Shown: piece by piece, positions 4,908 through 24,649 of the stretch
How the letters are laid out: every line of letters begins with the position of its first letter
Numbering within the stretch: position 1 is the stretch's first letter
Virus record (IMG/VR): IMGVR_UViG_3300008448_000538
Location: 1-26,295 of that record
DNA from: a virus
Reading direction: 5' to 3' (one strand)
DNA: 26,295 nucleotides
Position numbers and translations under genes: made by a program
Notes under the pieces: model-generated
What the model was told of the DNA's origin: nothing
What the model saw: the letters and a program-made list of their open reading frames with translations, nothing else
Database searches by the model: none

Positions 4908-5500
4908 TAGGTATTGCAACGGGCTTGATGAGTGCCGTTCAATCCATTGCTGGTTATCAAGCTCAAAGTCAAGCAGCCCGTGCTTCGGAACGTGCTTACC
5001 AACAACAACGTAACCTAAATCAAGAAGCCGCCAATCGGGCTTACCAGCAACAACAACTTAAGATGAAGGGTGAGATGGATAAGGCATCTCAACAAGCAGA
5101 ACAGGGCCTTGTGAGGCGTCTTCAAGCTCAAGGCAGTACCCTAGCCGCAGGGCGGACCGGACAGAGCATAGGCGGGCTCCTGACGGATGCTGAGCGGGTT
5201 GAGGGCAAGGATCTTGGAGCACTGGGTATGAACCTTGCTTATGCTCAACAGGATTACTTCTTTGGCATGGAGAGCATTTACAACCAACAGAAGAATGCTA
5301 ACATCTCTGCTGCGTCCCAACGGGTTGCAGCTCCTAGTGCGGGTGGATTGGCGCTTGGACTTGCTGGTGCTGCCCTTTCTGGTGTGTCGGCTGGTATGGC
5401 TCTTAAGGCCCCGGCAGCTGGGGGTGGTTCTTCTCCCATTCCTATTCCTGGGGCATCATTACCCGGTGGACGAGCCGGAACCGTTATTCGTTGGAGTTAA
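4886..5500 (+). CDS. Internal virion protein (T7 gp14-like)
   Basis: 204 residues; T7 gp14 has 196. It begins MCFPAAVVGIATG, close to T7 'MCWAAAIPIAISG'. A long Ala/Gln-rich helical stretch follows (about residues 20-110, with QQQ runs). The C-terminal third is Gly/Ala/Pro-rich. In T7, gp14 is ejected first and forms the outer-membrane part of the DNA-delivery channel. The ATG lies inside the end of the gp13-like gene, and the next gene begins 3 bases after the stop, so genes 13 to 15 are probably translated as a coupled set. Confidence 0.8.
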   Translation: MCFPAAVVGIATGLMSAVQSIAGYQAQSQAARASERAYQQQRNLNQEAANRAYQQQQLKMKGEMDKASQQAEQGLVRRLQAQGSTLAAGRTGQSIGGLLTDAERVEGKDLGALGMNLAYAQQDYFFGMESIYNQQKNANISAASQRVAAPSAGGLALGLAGAALSGVSAGMALKAPAAGGGSSPIPIPGASLPGGRAGTVIRWS

Positions 5501-5503
5501 TCA

Positions 5504-8413
5504 GTGGCTAGTATTTATGAATCCCCTGGCCAGCAGGTTGCTCTAACTGGATCTCAAACCTCTCCTAATTTTCAACCCGACGTTGCATATGATCCTAGCC
5601 GGTTGATGCTTCAACAGTCAGAAAAAGATCTTAGTGCTTTTGCTGCATTTTCTGATACCCTTACTAAGTTCATTACGGACAAAGCAAAGGAGAAGAATGA
5701 AGCCGAGATGCAACTCGGTATTGCTGATATTGTTAATGGAGACCTTGTTCCCACTCCACAAAAAACAGCAGAATATCAAGCCGATGTAATCACTCTTAGA
5801 ACTGCGGCTGAAGAAGATAGTAACACTGCTAAGACTATTTCTGAACAAGGAAATTTAGCAGTTGGTCAACAGTTCAAAGTTGACAGTAAACCTGTTTCTG
5901 GATGGCGGGCCTATGGCCGTGCTGTCGGAAAGGCCAAGATGGTTGCTTCCAGTGCCCAAGGCTTTATGGCCGCTTGGATGGAAAGCAAAGATAAGATTAT
6001 TCCAACCAAAGATGGAAGGTTGATTTCTCCTGCTGAAGTTGGTGCCGACCCTGCGGAGATTCAAGCCATGCTGGCCATGGGTCAGCAAGCTTTGATTCAG
6101 CAAAGTGGAATCCAAGGTCTTAACCCGATGATCATTGCTGAGCATGTGGCTCCTACGCTTCAAGCGATACGGGGACAAATGTTTTCCAATAAGCTGACTT
6201 CGGAAGTTGCCAAGCAAAAAGAAACAGCCGTTTCGGATCAACGTGGAGAAGTTCGGGGTATCTTTAGTAATCCCGATCTTACCACAGATGAAATGTTTGA
6301 TGGATTCCAATCTGCTGTTACTAACCTCGTAATTGATGGAGATTTGAGCCGGGGCAAGGCAAGTGATATCGCTATTCAGGAAATTCTGGATACGGTTGAA
6401 ACTATGCCAGCGGCACAAGGAAGGGAAATGTTGGAACGGCTAAGTGGTGTTCGTAAGATTGCCAACGATCCAAATAGCATTACTCTTGGTTTGGCTTACG
6501 GCAAAGAGTTTGATAAAGCTCTTAATGCTATTGACGAAGGTGAAGAGCGGTTCAATAAGCGGCAAGAAGCAGCGGCTAATAAAGCTGCGGAAGAAGCTTA
6601 TACAATTTTGATGACGGCTAGGATGGATCCAAATTCCAATCCGGCTGAGCTTAAAAAGCAACGTGAAATTGTTATGAGTATGCTTCAACAAGAAGCTAGT
6701 ACTGGTAATGAAGCAGCTAGGCGTCGTCTTGTTGAACTCCAAACCGAGCCTCCTAATGTTGATTATACTCTGTATCTTCAATATAGAGAGGGCATTGCTC
6801 AAGGCAAACTTCCTACCGATGCACAGATTGATAATGATGTAGCGGCTGGTAGGTTGACTGTCGAGATGGGCCGTGAACTTAAAGTTTTTGGTACTGCCGA
6901 TCAAGACAATGGGTTTAAGAAACAATTTGGTTCTAGTATTGAGGATGCTGTTAAGGCTAAATTAAGCGGCGAAGGAGCCATTTCTCTTAACCCTTATAAT
7001 CAACCAGATAAGCACTCTTTGCATGTTCAGCAAATTACAAATGATTTGACTCAGAATGCGTTGAAGTGGTGGAAGGGTCAAAAGGCGCAGGGTAAGAATC
7101 CGGACGATAATGACATCAACCAATTTGTTTTAAATCAAATACCTGAAACTATTGGTAAGTATTTTCAATACAATAAGGATACTCGTGAATGGATTCCACG
7201 TCCACTCAGCAGGAACCCTGAACTGACTCCTGATCGCATTAACAGTGCTTTAGGTGGACGTGTTCCTGATGCTGCTGGATTTAACCCACGCACCATTCAA
7301 CTGCGAAACCTTAACTCGGGTACGTCTCGTCAACTTACCGCACAAGAAGTTACTCAAAGTATTGGACAATTAAAAGCTGGACAACCAGTATCCGCTAAGG
7401 TTCAAACTTTGGCTAACTCTACCCTTGGTGGCTTGCCTGCTCTTCTTCAACAGCAATCGGTTCACAACAATCTTGATCCTAAGGAAGTTCAAGGACTACC
7501 TTTTGTTCAACAGAATGCCCAATACGCTGCTGTTGCTCCGTGGGCTACCCGTCGATTAAATGCCACAGGCGGTAATGCTCTTCAGCAGATCCTCCAACTT
7601 CAACGTATCCAACAAGCACAATTACGGAGACAACGTATGGAATCAAGCATGGGCATGGCTCCTGTTACTGACCTTCGTCCTGGGGTTAAAATTGGTATGC
7701 GTGAGTATCTTCAACTTGGACTTCAAAATGGTCTTAGTAAAGAAGAAGCCATTGAAATGGCTGCTGTGGGCATGGCCGAGTCTACTGGTAATTCCGGTGT
7801 TAGGAACACCAATCCAAATACTGGAGACGATTCCTATGGGTTGTGGCAAATCAATATGATTGGTAATCTAGGTCCCGATCGTTTGCGTCGTTACGGTCTT
7901 CGTAGCGCAGATGATCTAAAAGATCCGGAAACCAACGCTCGTGTCATGGCAGCTATGCTCAGGACAGACGGTAAGACGGCTTGGGGTGCTTATAAGGATA
8001 AGCGTTACCTTCAATACATGTCAGAAGCTCGTCGCATGTTTGCTGACGTTACTGGAGGCGGTACTATTGTTCCAGCCAGTCACCCTGATTCGGGTAGTGG
8101 ATTTACTATTCCTAATGCTCGTGATGCTAGCGGACGCCCTCCTATTTTTAGCCAAGGCGGAGCCAAAGCCTTTGCTAGGATGATGGCAGATTCCGGTGGT
8201 GTTGTTAGGGCAAGTGACATTGCGAGTTCCCAACGTAGTGGGGCTAAGAATCGCAGCGTTGGTGGAGCAGAAGCATCCCAACATCTTTCCGGCAATGCTA
8301 TGGACATTCATGGCCCTTCGGCTGAATGGATGAAGAAAAATGGACCTAAATATGGATGGTATCTCCACGAGTACGATGGTAGTCATGGTGGCCATTTTGA
8401 ATATCGCGGTTAG
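5504..8413 (+). CDS. Internal virion protein (T7 gp15-like) with C-terminal lytic transglycosylase and M15-type peptidase domains
   Basis: 969 residues from a GTG start 3 bases after the gp14-like stop; no in-frame ATG fits better. T7 gp15 is 747 residues. Residues 1 to about 720 are helical, acidic and Gln-rich, like gp15. Two enzyme-like domains follow. Around 740-850 is a lytic transglycosylase (SLT-like) domain: Glu759 in GMAEST, then DSYGLWQIN with G779-L780-W781-Q782-I783-N784. Around 870-969 is a D-Ala-D-Ala carboxypeptidase/M15-type fold: SQHLSGNAMD fits SxHxxGxAxD, with His927 and Asp934 as metal ligands and His964 (or His961) as the probable third. Both would cut peptidoglycan, one glycan and one peptide, during DNA entry. 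In T7 the transglycosylase is in gp16, so the activity seems to have moved. Domain calls rest on motifs only. Confidence 0.85.
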   Translation: MASIYESPGQQVALTGSQTSPNFQPDVAYDPSRLMLQQSEKDLSAFAAFSDTLTKFITDKAKEKNEAEMQLGIADIVNGDLVPTPQKTAEYQADVITLRTAAEEDSNTAKTISEQGNLAVGQQFKVDSKPVSGWRAYGRAVGKAKMVASSAQGFMAAWMESKDKIIPTKDGRLISPAEVGADPAEIQAMLAMGQQALIQQSGIQGLNPMIIAEHVAPTLQAIRGQMFSNKLTSEVAKQKETAVSDQRGEVRGIFSNPDLTTDEMFDGFQSAVTNLVIDGDLSRGKASDIAIQEILDTVETMPAAQGREMLERLSGVRKIANDPNSITLGLAYGKEFDKALNAIDEGEERFNKRQEAAANKAAEEAYTILMTARMDPNSNPAELKKQREIVMSMLQQEASTGNEAARRRLVELQTEPPNVDYTLYLQYREGIAQGKLPTDAQIDNDVAAGRLTVEMGRELKVFGTADQDNGFKKQFGSSIEDAVKAKLSGEGAISLNPYNQPDKHSLHVQQITNDLTQNALKWWKGQKAQGKNPDDNDINQFVLNQIPETIGKYFQYNKDTREWIPRPLSRNPELTPDRINSALGGRVPDAAGFNPRTIQLRNLNSGTSRQLTAQEVTQSIGQLKAGQPVSAKVQTLANSTLGGLPALLQQQSVHNNLDPKEVQGLPFVQQNAQYAAVAPWATRRLNATGGNALQQILQLQRIQQAQLRRQRMESSMGMAPVTDLRPGVKIGMREYLQLGLQNGLSKEEAIEMAAVGMAESTGNSGVRNTNPNTGDDSYGLWQINMIGNLGPDRLRRYGLRSADDLKDPETNARVMAAMLRTDGKTAWGAYKDKRYLQYMSEARRMFADVTGGGTIVPASHPDSGSGFTIPNARDASGRPPIFSQGGAKAFARMMADSGGVVRASDIASSQRSGAKNRSVGGAEASQHLSGNAMDIHGPSAEWMKKNGPKYGWYLHEYDGSHGGHFEYRG

Positions 8414-21662: not shown

Positions 21663-23408
21663 GTGAATCAAAAAACAGACACCGTAGAGGCCCGCCTAGA
21701 GGCCAGTTTCCCTTTGTTCCTTTCCCTTGTATGGAAGTCGCTAGACCTGCCGCGTCCAACAAGGGCTCAACTTGCTATTGCTGAGTATCTACAAAACGGC
21801 CCCAAGCGACTACAGATCTCCGCGTTTCGGGGTCTTGGTAAGTCGTGGATTGCTGCTGCTTTTGTGTTGTGGACCCTGTGGAATGATATTGACAAAAAAA
21901 TTCTTGTTGTGTCCGCAAGTAAACAACGGGCGGATGACTTCACCATCTTCACTCAAAAATGTATCCAAGAGTTTGAGTGGCTCTCTCACATGCGACCACG
22001 GGATGATGATCAGCGTTGGTCCAGAGTCTCCTTTGATGTTGCTGGGTGTCGCCCTGCCCAGTCACCATCGGTAAAGAGCGTAGGCATCACCGGACAGATC
22101 ACTGGTAGCCGTGCTGACCTGATTGTGTTTGATGACGTGGAGGTGCCAGCAAACTCCGCAACCGACATGATGCGAGAGAAGCTTCTTCAACTGGTGACGG
22201 AGGGTGAGTCAGTATTGACCCCGAAAAGGGATAGTCGCATCGTGTTTTTGGGTACGCCTCAGACCACCTTCACAATATACCGGACCCTGAGGGAAAGAAA
22301 CTACCGACCAATGGTGTGGCCTGCCCGCTACCCAAAGAGTCTTGTTGGGTATGAAGAGATTCTCGCTCCACAGCTTCTTTCAGATATTGAAGACAAGGGC
22401 CTTGATGCTATTGCTTGGGCCCCGACAGACACACGCTTCTCCGAGATCAACCTTCTTGAAAGGGAACAGTCAATGTCTCGGAGCAACTTCATGCTCCAGT
22501 TCATGCTCGACACGTCCCTCTCGGACGCCCTCAAGTTCCCCCTCAAGCTTAGCGACTTTTCTGTCTTCCCACTAGATCCGCAACGGGGGCCTTCGGACGT
22601 GATTTGGGGTGCTGATAAGGAGACCCTCCTCGACATGCCCGCCGTGGCCCTTCCAGGCGATAGGTGGCACCGACCCAAGAGTACCATTGATTATGTCCCC
22701 TACAATCAGACCATCATCGCTGTGGACCCCTCCGGTCGGGGTAAGGACGAAACCGTTGCCGTAGTCCTAAGCCAAATCAATGGGTTCATCTTTGTCCGGG
22801 ACATGCTTGCGACACAGGATGGATACTCGGATACGACCCTTAGGGGCATCCTAACGCTTGCCCGTAAGTACGGATCCAGTGTGTGTCTCATTGAGTCTAA
22901 CTTTGGTGACGGGGCAATCATGGAACTCATGAAGAAACATGCCCAAGAAATGAAGGTCGGAATGATGTTTGAGGAGGTACGCGCTACCACCCGAAAGGAG
23001 GACCGGATCATCGATACCCTAGAACCCGTCCTGAACCAACACCGCCTCATCATTGACCAAAAGCTCATCGACTGGGACTACCGCAGCAACCCAGAGATGG
23101 CCCCCGAAGAGAGGTTACCGAGAATGCTCATGTACCAGCTGACACGGATGTGCCGTGAGAAGGGTGCCGTGAAGCACGATGACCGAGTGGATGCCCTAGC
23201 TCTCGGTGTCAAGTACTTTCAGGACATCCTAGCCATCTCCGCCAAAGAGCAGGACATCCAAAAGTCCCGGCAACAATGGTCCAACATGGTTGAGGGGTTC
23301 CTCTCTGCCCCCACCTTAGCCACTGATTTGCTGGTCGCGGGAAGCACCTTTGACGACCCCATAACCCACGAAGAAGGACCCATTGTGTCGTGGATCAGCC
23401 GTCGCTAG
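21663..23408 (+). CDS. Terminase large subunit (T7 gp19-like)
   Basis: 581 residues; T7 gp19 is 586. The GTG at 21663 is used because an in-frame stop lies at 21648-21650 with no other start between. The ATPase has a Walker A variant FRGLGKS (55-61, as T7 FRGIGKS), a Walker B LIVFDDVE (153-160) and coupling motif FLGTPQT (195-201). The nuclease has Asp355 in AVDPSGRGKDE, Glu411 in LIESNFGDG, and the acidic HDDRVDAL (505-512). It is the motor that moves DNA into the prohead and cuts the concatemer. No Shine-Dalgarno motif is close to the start. All key residues are present, so the enzyme should be active. Confidence 0.95.
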   Translation: MNQKTDTVEARLEASFPLFLSLVWKSLDLPRPTRAQLAIAEYLQNGPKRLQISAFRGLGKSWIAAAFVLWTLWNDIDKKILVVSASKQRADDFTIFTQKCIQEFEWLSHMRPRDDDQRWSRVSFDVAGCRPAQSPSVKSVGITGQITGSRADLIVFDDVEVPANSATDMMREKLLQLVTEGESVLTPKRDSRIVFLGTPQTTFTIYRTLRERNYRPMVWPARYPKSLVGYEEILAPQLLSDIEDKGLDAIAWAPTDTRFSEINLLEREQSMSRSNFMLQFMLDTSLSDALKFPLKLSDFSVFPLDPQRGPSDVIWGADKETLLDMPAVALPGDRWHRPKSTIDYVPYNQTIIAVDPSGRGKDETVAVVLSQINGFIFVRDMLATQDGYSDTTLRGILTLARKYGSSVCLIESNFGDGAIMELMKKHAQEMKVGMMFEEVRATTRKEDRIIDTLEPVLNQHRLIIDQKLIDWDYRSNPEMAPEERLPRMLMYQLTRMCREKGAVKHDDRVDALALGVKYFQDILAISAKEQDIQKSRQQWSNMVEGFLSAPTLATDLLVAGSTFDDPITHEEGPIVSWISRR

Positions 23409-23474
23409 AAAGGGGCCCTGAAATTCCTCGAAAACCCTTGCTACCACTGGCCCCAAGAGAAGGTGCACACTATT

Positions 23475-23711
23475 ACCCAGGGAAGTGGTGCTCCTTGGGT
23501 GTGGAAACAGCGGTTTCGTAAGGGGGGACCTCTTTAGGGGGGTTCCTCCGACTTCCGGGTTTCCAGTTAACCGTATCCCGTCAAACCTATTAACCCAGGG
23601 GAACGGGTACGGGTATGGACGGACGGACCCCCTCCGGGGGGTTCGACAACTCAAAGGGGGGAAAGGGGGGATATATTAGACAGTAGATGCGAAGCCTACT
23701 GTTGGATATAT
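23475..23711 (+). ncRNA. Candidate structured RNA: six consecutive hairpins
   Basis: Six stem-loops follow each other with short spacers. H1 23475-23483/23492-23500 (9 bp). H2 23504-23508/23513-23517 (5 bp, AGCG loop). H3 23522-23532/23539-23549 (11 bp). H4 23571-23581/23603-23612 (10 bp with one bulge). H5 23624-23632/23637-23645 (9 bp, TCCG loop). H6 23671-23686/23696-23711. Six or more pairs are G-U on the + strand and would be A-C mismatches on the other, so a + strand RNA is favoured. The function is unknown: processing sites, an RNA acting in packaging, or a regulatory leader of thyX are all possible. Confidence 0.42.
23680..23702 (+). other. Hairpin with embedded GCGAAGC mini-hairpin
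   Basis: ACAGTAG (23680-23686) pairs with CTACTGT (23696-23702). Inside, after a 2-base bulge, lies GCGAAGC (23689-23695), a sequence known to form an unusually stable GNA-type mini-hairpin even as single-stranded DNA. Outside, ATATAT at 23671-23676 can pair with ATATAT at 23706-23711. Confidence 0.7.
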
Positions 23712-23738
23712 TTAGGAAACGCGACCACTGTCAATAGA

Positions 23739-23962
23739 AACAATAAAAAAGATAAAAGGAAGACAAATGTTAATTACTGTTATTAATCTTGTTTAATGTT
23801 TTTATTCTTGTTTATTGTTCCTTAAACGTAATGTATTACGATAGGTAGTAATGTATCACATCGGACCTATTACGATACAGCTGTTATAGAAAGAAAAATA
23901 ACAATAGTAACAATAACAACAGATAGTACCTATATTACTAGTACTTACCGTTACCACTGTAT
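23739..23962. repeat. AT-rich cluster of direct and inverted repeats, possible replication origin
   Basis: AACAATAAA (23739-23747) is inverted at 23811-23819, with extended A/T similarity inwards. TATTACGATA occurs twice (23834-23843, 23868-23877). GTAATGTAT occurs twice (23828-23836, 23848-23856). CGTAAT-GT-ATTACG (23827-23840) is a palindrome, and ATAGGT/ACCTAT (23841-23846, 23865-23870) an inverted pair. The surrounding sequence is much richer in A+T than the genes. The design resembles an origin with an unwinding element, but no defined initiator site is recognised. Confidence 0.4.
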
Positions 23963-23974
23963 TCACCAAAACGT

Positions 23975-24649
23975 ATGGCACCCGACATCAAACAACCATT
24001 CGAACAACCGTACCCCTCAAACGTTCGTCTGATCTGGATTACCCCAGCAGCAGAACACACCATTGAGTATTGTGCAAGAGTTAGTAACCCTAAGGGTCAG
24101 CAGACGCTGGACACAACAGGAAAGTTACTGAGGTATCTTGTTAATCATAATCATTGGTCCCCATTTGAGATGGCTTCCGCTTGCGTGGAAATAACCACAA
24201 CTCGGGACATCTCAGCACAGATCCTCCGACATAGAAGCTTTTCGTTTCAGGAGTTCAGTCAGAGATACGCGTCTACTGTTGATGGACTTGGGGGTCTGGA
24301 GATTCCGCATCTCCGCCGGCAAGACACGAAGAACCGTCAGGCTTCCCACGACGACCTTACTAGGGAGGAAACACAGGCGTTCTACCGCCGCATCTCTTCG
24401 TTGTTTGAGGATCTGGAACACCTCTACCAGGAAATGCTGTCCTCCGGCATTGCTAAGGAGTCAGCAAGGAAGATCCTTCCCATGAACAGTCCGACACGGC
24501 TGTATATGTCGGGGACCATTCGGTCGTGGATTCATTACCTTTCTGTGAGGCGAGAGGAAGGCACCCAGTTGGAGCATCGTGTCATTGCTAACCAGATCTA
24601 TCAAATCCTCAATAAGGAGATGCCGAACCTATGGGAAGTGATCAATTAG
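23975..24649 (+). CDS. thyX: Flavin-dependent thymidylate synthase
   Basis: 224 residues, a normal length. The ThyX signature RHRxxSxxxxSxRY is present as RHRSFSFQEFSQRY (residues 85-98). HWSPFEMASACVEIT (60-74) and the C-terminal SARKILPMNSPTRLYMSGTIRSW plus LSVRREEGTQLEHRVIA are also typical. The enzyme makes dTMP from dUMP with methylene-tetrahydrofolate, FAD and NADPH, and supplies thymidine for phage DNA synthesis. It is common in cyanobacteria and their phages. Its place right after the terminase, before the putative early region, is unusual for a nucleotide-metabolism gene, which in T7-like phages is normally in the early or middle region. The preceding AT-rich region may carry its promoter. 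The last 19 bases overlap the next gene. Confidence 0.95.
   Translation: MAPDIKQPFEQPYPSNVRLIWITPAAEHTIEYCARVSNPKGQQTLDTTGKLLRYLVNHNHWSPFEMASACVEITTTRDISAQILRHRSFSFQEFSQRYASTVDGLGGLEIPHLRRQDTKNRQASHDDLTREETQAFYRRISSLFEDLEHLYQEMLSSGIAKESARKILPMNSPTRLYMSGTIRSWIHYLSVRREEGTQLEHRVIANQIYQILNKEMPNLWEVIN
24614..24619 (+). promoter_or_regulatory. Shine-Dalgarno site for the 99-aa gene
   Basis: AAGGAG lies 11 bases before the ATG at 24631, inside the thyX coding sequence. It supports the overlapping start of the next gene. Spacing is at the long end of the normal range. Confidence 0.45.

Follow-up and report, generated by a model that had tools for sequence, protein, structure and literature searches.

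A conserved hairpin RNA element follows the terminase gene of T7-like cyanophages and is probably transcribed from a phage RNA polymerase promoter

Among the major viruses that infect marine Synechococcus and Prochlorococcus are the T7-like cyanophages, for which Syn5 and P-SSP7 serve as laboratory models. The locus studied here raises the question of whether a dense run of hairpins between the large terminase gene (terL) and thyX of one such phage represents an RNA and, if so, which of the hairpins belong to it. The window (the whole stretch of DNA analysed, 26,295 nt, IMG/VR record IMGVR_UViG_3300008448_000538) is a 26.3 kb fragment of a T7-like cyanophage, with PHROG family matches for its major capsid, tail tube, terL and thyX, and its terL region has its best isolate matches in Syn5, S-CBP42, P60 and S-SRP01. 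Its nearest relative, contig L007 (TerL identity 95%), encodes a Syn5-like RNA polymerase (RNAP; 47% identity), and the window contig is without an RNAP gene of its own.

The original prediction described six successive stem-loops behind a further inverted repeat and proposed an undescribed phage RNA. The stem-loops are indeed present at or near the predicted positions, as are both arms of the GGGGCC/GGCCCC repeat (table 1), and the + strand of 23475–23711 folds better than chance, though moderately (z = -2.65, with 1 of 200 dinucleotide shuffles as good); the - strand is not clearly above shuffles (z = -1.27), and the longer interval 23400–23730 gives z = -3.03 on the + strand. Taken alone, the folding energy of 23475–23711 is suggestive only, and the decisive evidence for a putative hairpin RNA is comparative.

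Table 1. Features in and around the terL–thyX gap (positions in the window)
Feature	Position	Strand	Remarks
terL, large terminase subunit	21663–23408	+	581 aa; phrog_38, E 7.6e-104; gene directly 5' of the hairpins
Outer pair GGGGCC/GGCCCC	23412–23417/23449–23454		
Putative phage-RNAP promoter AAGGTGCACACTATTA	23460–23475	+	abuts H1; aligned position is that of the Syn5 promoter
H1, class A core	23475–23500	+	stem ACCCAGGGA/TCCTTGGGT, 9 pairs, one G-U; loop AGTGGTGC at 23484–23491
3' single-stranded element TGTGGA-AACA-GCGGT	23500–23514	+	first T also closes the H1 stem
H3, terminator-like hairpin GGGGGGACCTCTTTAGGGGGGTTCCTCC	23522–23549	+	without a clear T run in the window phage
H4, stem CCGTATCCCGT/ACGGGTACGG	23571–23612	+	arms 23571–23581/23603–23612; kept in the window's subclade only
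H5	23625–23644		not conserved
H6, long hairpin ATATAT..GCGAAGC..ATATAT	23671–23711	+	patchy in close relatives
Inverted repeat TGTATTACGATAGGT..ACCTATTACGATACA	23832–23879		5' of thyX
GCTGTTATAGAAA	23880–23892		follows the inverted repeat
thyX	23975–24649	+	phrog_85 thymidylate synthase, E 2.1e-68; next gene 3' of the hairpins

The picture of an array of six equivalent hairpins gives way on comparison to a smaller unit. In aligned terL–thyX gaps of close relatives, H2 (GGAAAC/GUUUC), H5 and the outer GGGGCC/GGCCCC pair show no conservation and are probably incidental. H4 is retained even in L013–L015, which are without H1, and H6 is found in L017–L019, L021, L022 and, with changes, L178; H4, H6 and the remaining hairpins may belong to terminators or to leaders peculiar to a subclade. 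Other GCGAAGC-type hairpins stand in for H6 in L023, L024 and L195, and this retention or swapping of GCGAAGC-tipped hairpins among close relatives suggests exchangeable hairpin elements in the gap. The repeat region at 23832–23892, conserved in nearly all close relatives and with paired changes, is perhaps an operator or promoter region. As read from the alignments, the conserved unit is a putative promoter, H1, the element UGUGGA..GCGGU and one terminator-like hairpin.

We first recognised this motif by comparing the post-terL sequence of Syn5, P60, S-CBP42 and the window, and we refer to it herein as the class A RNA, of which the window's copy is H1 and the next ~14 nt. Its plan is a stem of 7–9 bp, the loop AGUGGUGC, UGUGGA, a short A/T-rich linker of three or four nucleotides in the general form, GCGGU and a terminator-like hairpin. 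The 8-nt loop is identical in 86 of 92 distinct copies, and the 3' element is nearly invariant in alignment A1, with a linker of 2–5 nt (7 once). Across the same 92 copies, stem pairs 1–7 are Watson-Crick in 73–99% of copies per pair, and the remaining cells are almost all G-U (50 cells), with no A-C among them. We assessed covariation on 34 non-redundant copies with 500 shuffles: 98.7% of stem cells are paired, against a mean of 74.4% after shuffling, the covariation score reaches 0.896 versus 0.364 in shuffles (0 of 500 as high), six of the seven stem pairs have changed on both sides, and the signal is lost when the partner strand is shifted by sliding. RNAalifold recovers the same H1 stem unaided. 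A covariance model (R1) finds the window's copy with cmsearch at 23474–23522 (53.2 bits, E 1.3e-12) and yields one significant copy each in Syn5, P60 and the window, and no significant copy in P-SSP7 or in the right end of T7 (L251). Judged from these alignments, a class A RNA element almost certainly exists, and the covarying stems anticipated in related phages are borne out by H1 and its 3' flank in more than 100 contigs.

The excess of G-U over A-C (50 against 0) also points to the strand, because an RNA read from the opposite strand would be expected to show A-C instead; together with the strong covariation, it agrees with the original claim of selection on a + strand RNA. The same count weighs on a DNA-level reading, in which the repeat is a packaging or maturation site or an extruded cruciform without RNA function. 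Such a signal would suit an element that adjoins terL and in Syn5 lies near the right genome end, but the G-U bias is unexpected for a duplex-DNA or two-strand signal and the promoter directly 5' speaks for RNA, which leaves this reading highly improbable. A conserved coding frame was rejected: single-nucleotide differences in the lengths of stem and linker leave the motif without a reading frame that could account for it, in line with the original remark that no open frame explains the region. In three contigs (L078, at about 5772–5790, L080 and L026) an extra closed hairpin is inserted between H1 and the TGTGGA element, an insertion of the kind an RNA could tolerate.

No match to a known family was found. 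At the gathering threshold nothing in the window matches Rfam (0 matches); with relaxed thresholds the Syn5 and window regions give chance-level matches only, far below threshold, and a tRNA and tmRNA search found none. We found no description of the hairpin RNA in the open-licence literature, and the only cyanophage entries in a 2025 review of small RNAs from phages are CfrI of S-PM2, which is antisense to psbA, and motifs in S-CREM1 (PMC12197685). These, like sar of P22 and OOP of lambda, belong to other phages and loci and differ in sequence from the hairpin RNA, and none of the small RNAs reviewed there adjoins terL or pairs with a single-subunit RNAP promoter pair; sar and OOP are short phage RNAs of similar length to it (PMC12197685). 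The conserved, covarying element is thus apparently undescribed, and unannotated in cyanophage genomes, in keeping with the original prediction.

Two further readings were rejected. Mimicry of a host RNA was set aside when the exact pattern gave 21 matches in 84,980 prokaryote genomes, about the chance expectation (estimate ~16), with the covarying stem in only two of them (L199 and L202). Both contigs have the class A RNA and, though binned with a Crocinitomicaceae MAG and a Euryarchaeota MAG, look like cyanophage sequences placed there by mistake. Antisense pairing within the phage was rejected as well: neither Syn5 nor P60 contains an 8-nt complement to the class A loop, and 7-mer complements to it occur at scattered, non-orthologous-looking sites. 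Pattern matches in L170, which appears to sit in a coding repeat, and in L133 were dropped as chance.

The motif is widespread. An exact pattern scan places class A in at least 120 stretches of viral contigs; among the matches listed, almost every distinct instance shares the strand of terL and most lie 17–83 nt 3' of the terL stop, many with thyX next. The phages that carry the RNA infect cyanobacteria of ocean and lake. Class A isolates include Syn5, P60, S-CBP42, S-TIP28, P-SSP10 and SS120-1, with P-SSP6, 9515-10a and NATL2A-133 added by BLAST; in S-CBP2 the hairpin is present and the 3' element is not clear. A second class (class B, loop AAGGGUGGA) occupies the same place after terL in P-SSP7, S-TIP37, S-CBP4, S-CBP1, S-RIP1, S-B28 and relatives. 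Covariation is visible in its stem; an internal AA/GA loop in many members keeps a gapless model from scoring that stem cleanly. P-SSP7-like phages such as L268, L283 and L286 have short inverted repeats (GGATATC..GATATC) shortly 3' of the class B hairpin.

Among 169 loci surveyed, almost all of them from two further terL searches, 150 have a class A or class B motif, a few of the class B matches lying elsewhere in the locus. On a TerL tree, class A is spread over several deep lineages, whereas class B is confined to a single derived clade (the P-SSP7 type) with a few gaps; S-CBP42 (L004) is scored as "other" on this tree despite its class A motif, probably because its terL frame is broken. 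In the window's own TerL clade, 14 of 37 relatives are without a recognisable motif of either class, and H1 is therefore replaceable or dispensable there. Several of these relatives retain the promoter-like AAGGTGCTTGCTTCTA with a different G-rich structure behind it. In five contigs without class A or B (L025, L028, L030, L058 and L059), AAGGTGCTTGCTTCTA stands about 60 nt after terL, followed by G-rich structure and GAGGAAGCC, possibly as a third class.

What would transcribe such an RNA is suggested by the sequence directly 5' of it. In Syn5 the phage-RNAP promoter ATTGGGCACCCGTAA ends at the base of H1, and the Syn5 genome contains exactly two copies of it, at 4929 (inside the RNAP gene) and at 44797–44811 (at the hairpin); a study of the enzyme likewise gives the phage only two RNAP promoters, and its passages on promoter and enzyme do not mention an RNA behind the second copy (PMC3950665). 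If a promoter at the hairpin is general, each phage's upstream sequence is expected again in its own RNAP gene. Indeed, every one of the 24 testable phages has a near-identical copy of its pre-hairpin sequence within the RNAP gene, so that the two-copy layout of Syn5 recurs in 23 others. The match is 15/15 in Syn5, 17/18 in P60, 16/18 in P-SSP7 and 15–17 of 17 in 12 class A contigs (L007, L036, L071, L083, L087, L089, L102, L104, L127, L147, L150 and L152), the weakest being L089, whose 15/17 equals its null maximum. Nine class B contigs, counting the near-identical L333 and L334 separately, match at 15–16 of 16 (null maximum 14). The position of the copy within the gene is nearly constant, at about nt 825 in Syn5, P60 and P-SSP7. 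The element 5' of the hairpin thus shares its sequence with the phage's other RNAP promoter, as a Syn5-type promoter does, the window itself excepted, since its RNAP gene is absent from the contig; for the window promoter the nearest relative, L007, holds an exact copy (17/17), and alignment with Syn5 predicts a start near 23476. That AGTGGTGC occurs once in Syn5, and that R1 matches Syn5, P60 and the window a single time each, indicates that the hairpin is more than a piece of the promoter.

Location and promoter together invite comparison with phiOR of T7. There the annotation puts the phage-RNAP promoter 99 nt beyond the stop of gene 19, and the cyanophage promoter likewise lies just 3' of terL at the right end; the other promoter, within the RNAP gene, comes early in the genome. 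The locus could accordingly be a phiOR-type right-end origin or packaging promoter at which transcription and primer or R-loop formation are what counts, the hairpin being the structured 5' end of a transcript with no role in trans. This account is a serious competitor, yet on balance an unlikely one: phiOR of T7 is followed neither by a comparable conserved, covarying hairpin with a fixed loop (L251 has no R1 match) nor by a terminator-like hairpin, priming needs neither an invariant loop nor a 3' element, and a terminator-like hairpin immediately downstream would halt a transcript bound for the genome end. With the same position, and with T7 lacking such a hairpin, the promoter is plausibly the counterpart of phiOR with an RNA added to it.

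The 5'-terminal place of H1 admits a further reading, in which H1 protects the mRNA of the following gene (thyX, talC or others) and the second hairpin tunes it, as a stabiliser or attenuating leader. A weak stem of at least 5 bp at the very 5' end is also common in transcripts predicted from the RNAP-gene promoter (20 of 23, versus 30% of random sites), for example at 4943–4975 in Syn5 (L231) and at about 2788–2820 in P60 (L233), where the region is coding. Part of the H1 stem may therefore serve a general 5'-end role, which may have come first. Genes in the same orientation do lie 3' of the hairpin, but they are not constant while the loop is invariant: thyX follows in Syn5 and P60, talC in NATL1A-7 and P-SSP7, and hypothetical genes in P-SSP10 and S-CBP2. 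The suggestion of a cis-regulatory leader for thyX, which would need the same gene always to follow, is consequently disfavoured; regulation of thyX alone is unlikely. A leader or stabiliser in general, which would need the stem and not the fixed loop and fixed 3' element, is a less likely account than the phiOR-type one. The fixed loop and 3' element point instead to a further binding function.

Downstream, an equivalent of H3 is present in most relatives (mean z -3.1 over 86 copies), and the 8 nt after its stem are 73% pyrimidine against a background of 50%; in P60, S-CBP42 and Syn5 it is a GC-rich hairpin followed by a U run, like ordinary intrinsic terminators. Termination at H3 is only putative, because a T run is missing from the window's H3 and Syn5 RNAP is not halted by the terminator of T7 (PMC3950665). 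Such a hairpin, just after the last long late gene, might also suggest that H1 and H3 form a terminator or RNase site of the terL mRNA and that the promoter-like sequence is incidental. We consider this improbable: in Syn5 the upstream element is an established promoter, 24 phages have it a second time in the RNAP gene, no U run follows H1, and the H1 loop is invariant.

The data support a conserved RNA structure, its strand and position, its promoter-RNAP coupling, its wide spread and the replacement of its loop class in one clade. A promoter, a fixed-loop hairpin and a terminator-like hairpin are the anatomy of a small RNA gene, and on this comparative footing the region likely encodes a discrete structured phage RNA of about 75–100 nt, made from a phage RNAP promoter after terL; that a discrete transcript is made at all seems slightly more assured. 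We propose that the phage single-subunit RNAP would start at the promoter just after terL, so placing the 5' end of the transcript at the foot of H1, and that the RNA would display the G/U-rich 8-nt loop and the 3' element UGUGGA..GCGGU, end at or near the second, GC-rich hairpin and accumulate as a separate molecule. In the late phase it may act in trans, its loop and 3' element binding a phage or host protein or RNA. Since the promoter occupies the place of phiOR, a candidate role is one tied to right-end transcription, replication or concatemer processing, and we hold any particular role only tentatively.

A structured RNA that adjoins the gene of the packaging ATPase also recalls the pRNA of phi29, which is bound to the packaging motor, is needed for packaging and has a pair of complementary interlocking loops. 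The two share no homology, and the cyanophage RNA has a single conserved apical loop without a complementary partner loop, so we rejected a phi29-type loop arrangement; a packaging role for the class A RNA is neither supported nor excluded.

We hypothesize, as a speculative and rather unlikely extension, that T7-like cyanophages depend on a dedicated, structured RNA from the second of their only two phage-RNAP promoters, functioning in the late cycle, for instance as a cofactor or regulator of the RNAP, the terminase or the replisome at the right end. We know of no core RNA component described for T7-type phages, and this dedicated RNA would, if the hypothesis is true, be one. Half of Syn5's phage-RNAP promoters appear to serve the hairpin RNA, and a strongly conserved, seemingly promoter-driven structured RNA beside terL offers a concrete target in cyanophages. 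The duplicated promoter, moreover, provides a simple bioinformatic rule by which promoters and RNA alike can be found in new genomes of T7-like cyanophages.
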